This document shows positions 54,363 through 58,611 of a stretch of 64,000 nt of DNA, one piece after another. This DNA is from Lyngbya aestuarii BL J (lineage in GTDB: Bacteria > Cyanobacteriota > Cyanobacteriia > Cyanobacteriales > Microcoleaceae): the NCBI RefSeq assembly GCF_000478195.2, contig NZ_AUZM01000013.1, forward strand, positions 1 to 64,000, in the 5' to 3' direction. The notes under the pieces are model-generated. The model was not told where the DNA came from. It searched no databases and saw only the letters and a list, made by a program, of their open reading frames with translations. How positions within the stretch are numbered: position 1 is the stretch's first letter; each line of letters starts with the position of its first letter. The position numbers and the translations under genes were made by a program.

Positions 54363-55871
54363 ATGGCGAGAGATTTACGGGGATTCCTCAAACGGCTAGA
54401 AGAACGGGGGCAATTACGACGCATTAATGCTTTAGTTGACCCCGACTTAGAAATTGCAGAAATTTCCAACCGAATGTTACAATCCGGTGGCCCCGGTTTA
54501 TTGTTTGAGAACGTCAAAGGGTCGCCTCATCCTGTCGCTATCAACTTACTCGGAACCGAACAACGAGTCTGTTTAGCGATGAACAGGTCAAACCCCCAAG
54601 AATTAGAAGAATTGGGAAAAAAACTCGGAATGCTACAACAACCCAAACCCCCGAAAAAAATCTCGCAAGCCGTAGATTTTGGTAAAGTATTATTTGATGT
54701 CGTTAAAGCCAAACCCAGCCGAAATTTCTTTCCCCCTTGTCAACAAGTCATCCTCGAAGGAGAAGACCTAGATTTAAACAAAATTCCGATGATTCGCCCC
54801 TATCCCAAAGATGCGGGTAAGATTATTACCTTGGGATTAGTGATTACAAAAGACTGTGAAACTGGAACTCCAAATGTGGGCGTTTATCGCTTACAATTGC
54901 AGTCAAAAAACACCATGACTGTGCATTGGTTATCGGTTCGGGGAGGGGCAAGACACCTGCGAAAAGCCGCAGAAAACGGCAAAAAACTAGAAATTGCGAT
55001 CGCATTAGGCGTTGATCCGTTAATCATAATGGCGGCCGCTACACCCATTCCCGTTGATTTATCTGAATGGTTATTTGCCGGATTATATGGCGATTCAGGT
55101 GTACAACTTGCTAAGTGTAAAACCGTTGATTTAGAAGTTCCCGCCGACTCGGAATTTGTACTCGAAGGAACCATGACTCCCGGCGAAATGTTACCCGACG
55201 GGCCGTTTGGAGATCACATGGGATATTACGGGGGCGTTGAAGATTCGCCGTTAATTCGATTTCACTGCATGACCCACCGCAAAGACCCGATTTATTTAAC
55301 CACATTTAGCGGTCGTCCCCCCAAAGAAGAAGCGATGATGGCGATTGCTTTAAACCGCATTTATACCCCAATTTTACGACAACAAGTTTCTGAAATTGTT
55401 GACTTTTTCTTACCCATGGAAGCGTTAAGTTATAAAGCAGCAATTATCTCCATTGATAAAGCATATCCCGGTCAAGCTAGGCGGGCAGCGTTGGCATTTT
55501 GGAGTGCATTACCCCAGTTTACTTATACCAAATTTGTAATTGTTGTGGATAAAACGATTAATATTCGTGATCCGCGTCAAGTCGTCTGGGCAATTTCGTC
55601 TAAAGTTGACCCCTCTCGGGATGTGTTTATTCTTCCCAATACGCCCTTTGATACCTTAGATTTTGCTAGCGAAAAAATTGGTTTAGGTGGACGGATGGGA
55701 ATAGATGCAACCACCAAAATTCCTCCCGAAACCGACCATGAATGGGGCGAAGCATTGGAGTCTGATGTTGATGTCGCGGCGATGGTTTCTCGACGTTGGG
55801 CGGAATATGGGTTAGGAGATTTGAATTTAACCGAAGTTGACGCCAATAAATTCGGTTACGACATTCAATAA
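54363..55871 (+). CDS. ubiD: UbiD-family prenylated-FMN decarboxylase
   Basis: This 502-residue protein matches UbiD along its whole length: MARDLRGFLKRLEERGQL at the start, GGPGLLFENVKG, the central NVGVYRLQLQSKNTMTVHW strand with metal and phosphate ligands, FVLEGTMTPGEMLPDGPFGDHMGYYGG, and LSYKAAIISIDKAYPGQ. The family uses prenylated FMN for reversible decarboxylation. In quinone pathways it acts on 4-hydroxy-3-polyprenylbenzoate, so a role in plastoquinone synthesis is likely. No ubiX (the prenyl-FMN synthase) is nearby. A REP array follows the stop codon. Confidence 0.93.
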   Translation: MARDLRGFLKRLEERGQLRRINALVDPDLEIAEISNRMLQSGGPGLLFENVKGSPHPVAINLLGTEQRVCLAMNRSNPQELEELGKKLGMLQQPKPPKKISQAVDFGKVLFDVVKAKPSRNFFPPCQQVILEGEDLDLNKIPMIRPYPKDAGKIITLGLVITKDCETGTPNVGVYRLQLQSKNTMTVHWLSVRGGARHLRKAAENGKKLEIAIALGVDPLIIMAAATPIPVDLSEWLFAGLYGDSGVQLAKCKTVDLEVPADSEFVLEGTMTPGEMLPDGPFGDHMGYYGGVEDSPLIRFHCMTHRKDPIYLTTFSGRPPKEEAMMAIALNRIYTPILRQQVSEIVDFFLPMEALSYKAAIISIDKAYPGQARRAALAFWSALPQFTYTKFVIVVDKTINIRDPRQVVWAISSKVDPSRDVFILPNTPFDTLDFASEKIGLGGRMGIDATTKIPPETDHEWGEALESDVDVAAMVSRRWAEYGLGDLNLTEVDANKFGYDIQ

Positions 55872-55942
55872 TTCAATTTCCTATCGTTCAACTATTATCC
55901 CATACTGTTGGGCGTTGTCTGGGCGTTATCTGGGCGTTATCT

Positions 55943-55961
55943 GGGCGCAAACCTTGCGCCC
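55943..55961. repeat. REP hairpin 1
   Basis: GGGCGCAA-ACC-TTGCGCCC, a perfect 8-bp stem with a 3-base loop. Confidence 0.85.
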
Positions 55962-56097
55962 CTACGGTTGGATTATCCAATACCAAATATCAATTAATAT
56001 TATTCCTAATCTCTTGGAAAAATGTTAGATTGGGCGCTGTCTGGGCGTTGTCTGGGCGTTGTATGGGCGTTCTATTGGCATTCTCTGGGCATTCTCT

Positions 56098-56116
56098 GGG
56101 CGCAAACCTTGCGCCC
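56098..56116. repeat. REP hairpin 2
   Basis: Identical to hairpin 1 (GGGCGCAA-ACC-TTGCGCCC), 155 bases further on, with the same downstream sequence. Confidence 0.85.
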
Positions 56117-56230
56117 CTACGGTTGGATTATCCAATAGCAAATATGAATCAATGTCATTCCTAATCTCTTGGAAAAATGTTAGATTGGGCGTTGTCTGGG
56201 CGTTGTCTGGGCGTTGTCTGGGCGATGTAG

Positions 56231-56249
56231 GGGCGCAAGGCTTGCGCCC
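56231..56249. repeat. REP hairpin 3
   Basis: GGGCGCAA-GGC-TTGCGCCC, same stem with a changed loop. It stands 76 bases before the RAYT start codon. Confidence 0.85.
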
Positions 56250-56324
56250 TCCTGCTTAATATTATTCCTAATCTCTCGGAAAAATGTTAGATTGGGCGCT
56301 GTTGGACTATCCCCAATACCAAAT

Positions 56325-56897
56325 ATGAATCAATATCATTCCCAATATCATCGCCGTTCTATTCGTCTTCAGGGGTATGATTATTCTCAAGCTGGTTTTT
56401 ATTTTATCACCTTATGTACTCGCGATCGCCAATGTTGGTTCGGCGAAATAAAAAACGGAAAAATGCACCTCAATTCTATTGGTTCTATTGTCGCTGAAGA
56501 ATGGTTAAAATCTGCCGAAATCCGATCAGAAATTGAATTAGATGAATGGATTATTATGCCGAATCATTTTCACGCGATGGTGATTATTAAAACAGAAATT
56601 AAAAACGGTTTTGGCGAACAGTTAGAAAACAATCCCGGCACCAGAAAACCCCGATCTTTATCTACATTAATTTCAGGGTTTAAAGCCGGAGTAACAAAAC
56701 GAATTAGTGAAATTCGTCAAGTTTCAGGCGTTTCGATTTGGCAGCGCAACTATTATGAACATATTATTCGAGATGAATTATCATTGTATAATATCCGAAA
56801 ATATATCCTCGAAAATCCATTATCTTGGTCGGAAGATCCAGAAAACCCTCAAAAATATTCCCATTATCAAACGATTGAATTAGATTTACCCTTTTGA
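56325..56897 (+). CDS. REP-associated tyrosine transposase (RAYT, Y1 family)
   Basis: This 190-residue Y1/HUH-type enzyme starts at the ATG at 56325; an upstream TTG at 56214 opens the same frame but only translates repeat DNA. The metal-binding HUH motif is in IMPNHFHAMVII. The catalytic Tyr lies in WQRNYYEHIIRDE, followed by IRKYILENPLSW, the usual RAYT end. FYFITLCTRDRQCWFG is the typical N-terminal strand. RAYTs are single-copy, domesticated relatives of IS200/IS605 transposases that act on REP hairpins, and this gene is flanked by them. Its first codons are homologous to part of the repeat unit. Length is normal and the frame is intact. Confidence 0.93.
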   Translation: MNQYHSQYHRRSIRLQGYDYSQAGFYFITLCTRDRQCWFGEIKNGKMHLNSIGSIVAEEWLKSAEIRSEIELDEWIIMPNHFHAMVIIKTEIKNGFGEQLENNPGTRKPRSLSTLISGFKAGVTKRISEIRQVSGVSIWQRNYYEHIIRDELSLYNIRKYILENPLSWSEDPENPQKYSHYQTIELDLPF

Positions 56898-57198
56898 TCG
56901 CTATCTATTTAACGTTTTTCAAAAATTGTAGGGGTGCTTCATCCTGCGCCCTCTGAGTTGCTTCACAGGAAAACTGCCAACCAAAAATGATCGGCAGCTC
57001 CGGATTACTCCAGATTATTTGTAGAATCCCGCATTCTTAGACTGCAAACGCCTTGATTTTGCTCCCCATTTCTGAGAAAACGACTAAAATACGCTCTCAT
57101 TCAGCCATTGGAGAGAGGAGATTAACCCAATCGGCAGATAACAATACCCACTAGACCTGTGTTATAAGTATTTATATTTCTTAACCTTTTTTTACCAA
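56898..57198. other. Intergenic region after the RAYT gene
   Basis: 301 bases holding a degenerate REP near its start and otherwise no recognised gene or RNA. The promoter of the BT1 transporter gene should lie here but is not obvious. Confidence 0.4.
56930..56951. repeat. Degenerate REP hairpin after the RAYT gene
   Basis: AGGGGTGC and GCGCCCT are imperfect arms with an eroded centre, related to hairpin 3 (AGGGGCGC and GCGCCCT). REPs therefore flank the transposase on both sides. Confidence 0.55.
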
Positions 57199-58611
57199 AT
57201 GCTTATATCTTCGACGAGGCTAGCCAATATCAAAGCCAATATCAAGAAGAATATATTTTTCGGTAAGAAGCCCACCCCAGAACTGATTGCAATTTTACTT
57301 GTATACTTCGTTCAGGGCATCTTAGGACTGGCGCGACTTGCTGTAAGCTTCTTTCTCAAAGACGACTTGGGAATGACGCCCGCAGAAGTCTCAGCAATGT
57401 TGGGAATCGTCGTCTTACCTTGGGTAATCAAACCTTTATTTGGCTTTCTTTCCGACGGTTTACCCCTATTTGGCTATCGTCGCCGACCTTATCTGATTTT
57501 ATCAGGTTTTTTGGGTGCGATCGCCTGGATTGGGATGGCCACAGTCGTAGATAGTCCCCTAACCGCCACTCTCGTCATCACCCTGAGTTCGTTGTCTGTC
57601 GCCATCAGCGATGTGATTGTAGACTCATTAGTGGTTGAACGGGCGCGAAAAGAATCCCTGAGTGATGTCGGTTCCTTGCAATCTTTGTGTTGGGGAAGTT
57701 CAGCTTTAGGGGGATTAATTACGGCTTATCTCAGTGGTTTTTTATTAGAAATCGTCACCGTAAAAACCGTATTTTTAATAACTGCGAGTTTTCCTTTAAT
57801 TGTTTGTGGTGTGGCGTGGCTAATCACAGAAGAAAAAGTGGGTGATCGCTCAAATCTAGATACCGTAAAACAACAAATCAGTCAACTCCGTCAGGCTGTT
57901 TCTCAAAAAACAATCTGGCTACCGATGGCTTTTTTATTCATCTGGCAAGCGACCCCAACAGCCGATTCAGCTTTCTTTTATTTCACCACAAACGAACTCG
58001 GATTTCAACCCGAATTTTTAGGGCGAGTTCGCCTGGTTACGAGTATCGCCTCTTTAGTGGGTGTATTGCTGTTTCAACGCTTTTTTAAAACCATTCCCTT
58101 TCGCAAAATCTTCACTTGGTCTACAATTTTATCAACAGTTTTGGGCATGACAATGTTGTTGCTTGTCACCCATGCTAACCGTGCATTAGGAATAGATGAT
58201 CATTGGTTTAGTTTAGGTGATAGTCTAATTTTAACAGTCATGGGACAAATCGCCTATATGCCTGTTTTAGTATTAGCAGCGCGTTTGTGTCCGCCCGGAG
58301 TAGAAGCCACTTTATTTGCCTTGTTAATGTCGGTGTATAACCTAGCAGGACTCTTATCTCACGAATCTGGGGCATTGTTAACTCACCTATTAGGGGTAAC
58401 AGAACATCAATTTGAAAACCTCTGGATACTGGTGATTATTACGAATATTTCCACATTGCTTCCCCTTCTTTTTCTTAACTGGTTGCCCAATCTTAGCGCA
58501 AAAGCAGAGGGAGAAGATTCTGATTCTAAAATGCCAATCTCTCAACGAACTGGACATCATCATGTGCCGGAATTTGTACCAGAATATGAGGGAATTGGGA
58601 TTCGAGACTAA
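57199..58611 (+). CDS. BT1-family folate/biopterin transporter
   Basis: This 470-residue membrane protein has about 12 predicted helices and a short charged C-terminus. Family signatures include YFVQGILGLARLAVSFFLKDD in helix 1, VLPWVIKPLFGFLSDGLPLFGYRRRPYLI (the MFS-like loop 2-3), and SDVIVDSLVVERAR in helix 4-5. BT1 proteins of cyanobacteria and chloroplasts (such as Slr0642) carry folates or pteridines across the inner membrane. The carotenoid oxygenase gene follows after 72 bases on the same strand and may be cotranscribed. Confidence 0.9.
   Translation: MLISSTRLANIKANIKKNIFFGKKPTPELIAILLVYFVQGILGLARLAVSFFLKDDLGMTPAEVSAMLGIVVLPWVIKPLFGFLSDGLPLFGYRRRPYLILSGFLGAIAWIGMATVVDSPLTATLVITLSSLSVAISDVIVDSLVVERARKESLSDVGSLQSLCWGSSALGGLITAYLSGFLLEIVTVKTVFLITASFPLIVCGVAWLITEEKVGDRSNLDTVKQQISQLRQAVSQKTIWLPMAFLFIWQATPTADSAFFYFTTNELGFQPEFLGRVRLVTSIASLVGVLLFQRFFKTIPFRKIFTWSTILSTVLGMTMLLLVTHANRALGIDDHWFSLGDSLILTVMGQIAYMPVLVLAARLCPPGVEATLFALLMSVYNLAGLLSHESGALLTHLLGVTEHQFENLWILVIITNISTLLPLLFLNWLPNLSAKAEGEDSDSKMPISQRTGHHHVPEFVPEYEGIGIRD

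Follow-up and report, generated by a model that had tools for sequence, protein, structure and literature searches.

Repetitive extragenic palindromic sequences (REPs) are known to form tandem clusters, and both such clusters and bacterial interspersed mosaic elements (BIMEs) have been described in forms that include the DNA flanking the palindrome (Di Nocera et al. 2013, PMC3733652; Bertels and Rainey 2011, PMC3116915). Ordered clusters of REPINs, three of them beside genes for REP-associated tyrosine transposases (RAYTs, or TnpAREP), are reported in the latter source as tandem repeats that include their flanks, and Figure 8 of the former contains a "5'ov" class, in which REPs overlap the 5' end of the RAYT gene. 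TnpAREP subclass 2.4 (RAYT group 4) is abundant in cyanobacteria, and the presence of a REP inside the coding sequence, between the HUH and Y motifs, has been published for this subclass (Quentin et al. 2018, PMC6006769). Here, we describe a RAYT locus of the cyanobacterium Lyngbya aestuarii BL J in which the DNA repeated together with the REP includes the start of the RAYT gene itself. The locus lies in a 64,000-nucleotide stretch (positions 1 to 64,000 of contig NZ_AUZM01000013.1, referred to below as the window) of a draft genome with 437 contigs that total 6.86 Mb.

A tandem array that ends in the RAYT start

Upstream of the RAYT gene lies an array of four traceable units, which extends from 55909 to about 56349 and has a period of 155 bp. 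Two periods are identical at 141 of 155 positions (91%), so REP and adjacent DNA are reiterated head to tail. Each unit follows the same order where its parts are preserved: the left end (TAATCTCTTGGAAAAATGTTAGAT) is followed by 11-mers arranged in a run (TGGGCGTTGTC), then by a REP hairpin with a GTAG foot (GGGCGCAAACCTTGCGCCCCTAC or its inverse), and lastly by a copy of the leader and initial codons of the RAYT (Table 1). On its right, the array ends with the RAYT gene's own start (start codon at 56325), and the final unit (from 56269) continues into the gene. REPs are present in both orientations within the array, a REPIN being defined as two inverted REPs that form a dispersed unit.

A sequence-only reading of the window had held that the repeat unit comprises the hairpin plus the 5' end of the RAYT gene; both are indeed present, and the coordinates and letters that it gave for the start-region copies are correct. 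The unit includes a copy of the leader, the start codon, and the first six to eight codons. At 56144, the copy reads ATG AAT CAA TGT CAT TCC TAA; at 55989, it reads ATC AAT TAA; and a third, partial copy of the leader, at 56256 to 56268, lacks the ATG. One of the three upstream copies therefore retains the ATG, which opens a frame of six codons closed by TAA; another has ATC instead, and the third is without the position. The leader segment CCAATACCAAAT occurs at 55977 as well as before the RAYT gene, while the second copy has CCAATAGCAAAT. When bases -24 to +25 of the RAYT gene are compared with two of the upstream copies, 84 to 86% match (E values of 3e-8 and 3e-9), and the ungapped score of the start copy (29) is far above the maxima obtained from 1,500 random stretches of the window (13) and from 500 dinucleotide shuffles (16). 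The array copies differ among themselves, which argues against an assembly error.

Confinement of the leader to one locus

Searching the bacterium's own genome with 89 bases of the leader and unit end retrieved four places, all within the array, and otherwise only matches of 14 to 24 bases (E up to 10); pairs of the 11-mer are likewise limited to the array in this genome. With a strict hairpin pattern, 10 sites are found in the genome, three of which are in the array, and a pattern for GTAG-footed REPs (at most one mismatch) occurs at 28 sites, again with three in the array, versus 1 for a reversed control pattern. All seven perfect hairpins outside the array have unrelated flanks and no leader, and the proposal that the leader was copied along with dispersed REPs is not supported.

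The same holds across relatives: among 291 genomes of the order, only that of L. aestuarii BL J has the leader, which was not found in the 290 others. Matches at E up to 0.01 arise in 36 of the 291 genomes, this one included, and those of the other 35 are weak; the 14 weak-match loci that we viewed are AT-rich, heptamer-like (runs of CAATTATC), or coding sequence, and none is a RAYT leader. The neighborhood of the adjacent UbiD gene was also compared, with loci obtained from 30 of the 57 family genomes carrying this gene (some of these loci end at contig ends). In the 29 of these loci that come from relatives, some of them truncated by contig ends, neither a RAYT nor the transporter gene occurs within 1.5 kb of UbiD. 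Dispersed REPs that lack the segment, together with relatives that lack the array, are what the sequence-only reading had itself named as the mark of a local tandem duplication, and this is the pattern that we find.

The RAYT gene and its surroundings

The RAYT, a domesticated transposase gene, is flanked by three REPs upstream and a degenerate one downstream, and REPs also occur elsewhere in the genome. Its Y1/HUH domain is recognized by Pfam Y1_Tnp (25.2 bits; cut-off, 23) and by the motifs NHFH and YYEH/YILENP. The best family is NCBIfam REP_Tyr_transpos NF047646 (E of 9.2e-19), although the score of 67.8 bits falls below the curated cut-off of 80, and a sequence search of solved structures yielded only a weak match, to E. 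coli TnpAREP (chain 4er8; E of 0.3). The motifs of TnpAREP subclass 2.4 (NH[IFV]H, WQ, and YIxNNP) appear as NHFH, WQ, and YILENP, the fourth letter of the last being E and not N. Within the coding sequence of this RAYT, no REP lies between HUH and Y, although an insertion there is common, if not universal, in the subclass. Of the 110 RAYT loci examined (L035 to L145), 74 have such a palindrome, the genome's other RAYT among them.

Table 1. Coordinates of the array, its REPs, and neighboring genes in the window
Feature	Position	Strand	Description
Unit 1 (partial)	55909..56006	+	Without left end; 11-mers TGGGCGTTRTC, REP hairpin, leader copy, ATC replaces ATG
Unit 2 (complete)	56007..56161	+	TAATCTCTTGGAAAAATGTTAGAT, 11-mers, REP hairpin, leader copy, ATG at 56144
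Unit 3	56162..56268	+	Common left end, 11-mers, REP oppositely oriented, leader tail only (TTAATATTATTCC), no ATG
Unit 4	56269..56349	+	Common left end, a single 11-mer, hairpin absent, followed by leader, start codon, and first 8 codons of the RAYT itself
REP hairpin GGGCGCAAACCTTGCGCCCCTAC	55943..55965	-	GTAG foot on minus strand
REP hairpin, second copy	56098..56120	-	GTAG foot on minus strand
REP hairpin GTAGGGGCGCAAGGCTTGCGCCC	56227..56249	+	GTAG foot on plus strand
Degenerate REP (GTAGGGGTGCTTCATCCTGCGCCC)	56928..56951	+	Downstream of RAYT
RAYT (TnpAREP) gene, 190 aa	56325-56897	+	NHFH at residue 80, WQRNYYEH from 139, YILENP at 160
UbiD-type decarboxylase gene	54363-55871		Upstream neighbor of the RAYT locus
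BT1-family transporter gene	57199-58611		Neighbor on the other side of RAYT

Parallels at other RAYT loci

A precise, independent parallel to the array exists in Anaerolineaceae bacterium 4572_78 (L090, positions 1 to 345). There, a 135-bp tandem unit, present in 2.6 copies at 93%, combines a GTAG REP with the first 17 codons of the RAYT, and its last copy continues into the intact gene. This unit, too, is found at its own locus only, two further weak matches being short (E of 0.003 and 0.07). Other cases are less complete. At L123 (about 300 to 537), a decayed fragment of a RAYT 5' end (about 126 nt) and then a REP stand directly upstream of an intact RAYT; the fragment is perhaps a relic of a duplication between an upstream REP and an internal one. 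An Azoarcus metagenome-assembled genome (L120) holds a less clear, partial upstream copy of the RAYT start, whose status is ambiguous: the piece that follows it matches the 3' end of the gene with its REP (a match that consists mostly of the REP), and the beginning of the downstream DNA (ATGGCGGGTGA) is itself similar to the "start copy."

We surveyed how often RAYT gene ends recur within 900 bp, masking REP palindromes, requiring a minimum of 200 bp of flanking sequence on either side, and using neighboring open reading frames (ORFs) as controls. The 200-bp context filter reduced the RAYT 5' ends from 111 to 105 and their controls from 240 to 170, and the RAYT 3' ends from 110 to 105 and their controls from 270 to 170; one locus is counted twice (L037 and L067 are a single Okeania contig). 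RAYT starts are captured no more than expected, recurring nearby at 5 of 105 loci versus 8 of 170 control ORFs (Fisher p = 1.0). Among the five matches, the one at L058 spans just bases -25 to about -5 and not the start codon, and two of the control matches (L113) are paralogous genes. The 3' ends, which recur at 17 of 105 loci versus 9 of 170 (Fisher p = 0.005), are perhaps captured more than expected, but the excess is not clean, since imperfect REP pieces escaped masking in some of these matches. Individual examples of repeats located at the 3' end of another cyanobacterial RAYT gene, or extending across it, are L063, L046, L043, L048, L061, and L109.

Origin of the array

We regard the array as a tandemly amplified REP cluster beside a RAYT, produced by an ordinary local duplication that had its right breakpoint within the RAYT start and was later amplified, a reading to which we assign a probability of roughly 85%. 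A stretch of about 80 to 155 bp, reaching from intergenic DNA (TAATCTCTTGG...) to within RAYT codons 6 to 8, would have been duplicated in tandem, leaving the gene start in truncated form in each upstream unit and the intact gene in the last. Slippage or unequal recombination among the repeats may then have altered the copy number, the number of 11-mers, and the hairpin, with the start copies in the array free to decay.

The direction of copying, from gene to array, is suggested by the protein's N terminus. Parsing for the conserved H-R-R-S block succeeded at 87 of 111 RAYT loci, and in 58 of these, exactly eight residues precede HRRS, as in the window protein (MNQYHSQY). Because the N-terminal length is conserved in relatives, the RAYT start is probably ancestral and is most likely the source of the array copies.

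Three points weigh against this reading. For the unit's left end (TAATCTCTTGG...), no similarity to RAYT or UbiD exceeds chance, which puts the first duplication beyond reconstruction. The unit nearest the gene is without a hairpin, and a pure tandem duplication therefore requires that a hairpin was later gained or lost. Finally, no intermediate state of the array was seen in a comparison that included no second species of the genus. A different source, an internally deleted RAYT copy with its start fused to its 3' end, was considered and rejected: the post-start part of the unit matches the RAYT or its 3' flank no better than shuffles do (score of 9 versus a null mean of 9.1 for the RAYT coding sequence, and 8 versus 8.3 for the 3' part), and the same test on the Anaerolineaceae locus was negative.

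The alternative that survives best, which we nonetheless think improbable, is that the RAYT itself, if active, drove the amplification, nicking GTAG-footed REPs beside its own gene so that strand rejoining or re-replication multiplied the REP and gene start locally. The array does contain GTAG-footed REPs in both orientations; moreover, TnpAREP cleaves REPs, the multiplication of REPs near their gene has been discussed for Marinomonas (PMC8266576), and BIME formation through RAYT cleavage was proposed by Nunvar et al. (PMC2817692). However, the unit boundaries fall at TAATCTC and inside codons 6 to 8, not at the GTAG foot, and the last unit has no hairpin. Much more doubtful is an extension of this idea, in which REP arrays would repeatedly capture the RAYT start because the RAYT nicks adjacent REPs, the truncated starts feeding back on RAYT expression or serving as donors that rewrite its 5' end. 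The cases behind it are the full tandem arrays of the window and of Anaerolineaceae 4572_78 and the partial copies in two other lineages.

The sequence-only reading had also raised the possibility of decoy initiation sites that tune RAYT expression, by titrating ribosomes or by forming a leader structure. One upstream copy does retain an ATG and six codons ahead of a stop, and a strong hairpin lies within the 160-nt RAYT leader, but this explanation fares worse still. Decoy starts are unlikely because only one of three array copies has kept the ATG, followed by just a six-codon frame, the other two having lost it; the 160 nt leading up to and into the RAYT (56186 to 56345) fold at -52 kcal/mol, a value that does not stand out from shuffles (z = -1.65, with 12 of 200 as good); a consensus scan of 55872 to 56400 for one promoter type only gave no plus-strand promoter-like site; and, as noted, RAYT starts recur near their own gene no more often than control starts. 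Nothing that we found in the sequence points to a selected decoy. Least probable of all, and contradicted in both genomes, is a miniature mobile element of RAYT start plus REP spreading through the genome, which the existence of such units in two unrelated lineages might suggest: each unit occupies one locus instead of several (one here and one in Anaerolineaceae 4572_78), neither is dispersed in its genome, and the flanks of the seven perfect hairpins outside the array are different.

Comparison with known systems

The sequence-only reading knew of no named precedent for this arrangement. That view stands in part: a literature search, which left subscription papers and supplements outside its reach, found no publication on copies of a RAYT start in REP arrays. 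Tandem REP clusters that include flanking DNA, in contrast, are already published (PMC3733652, PMC3116915), and the window array belongs to this known kind of structure. Like the clusters described in those sources, it repeats the REP along with flanking DNA; it differs in that the flank is the start of the RAYT and in that the unit includes an 11-mer minisatellite. With the REPtrons of subclass 2.4, as presented in PMC6006769, the locus shares a cyanobacterial RAYT, the NHFH, WQ, and YIxxNP motifs, and long flanking GTAG REPs, whereas the window RAYT has no REP in its coding sequence and many relatives do. The "5'ov" class of PMC3733652 is similar in that a repeat flanking the transposase gene extends over its 5' end; in that figure, however, the overlapping element is a REP or inverted repeat, and in the window, it is the nonpalindromic part of a tandem unit. 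The novel aspect is a modest twist, namely, that the captured flanking DNA is the RAYT start. Two distant lineages show that tandem REP clusters can take in the start of the transposase gene that they flank, which offers a small clue to the way in which REP arrays expand around RAYTs and calls for no new mechanism.
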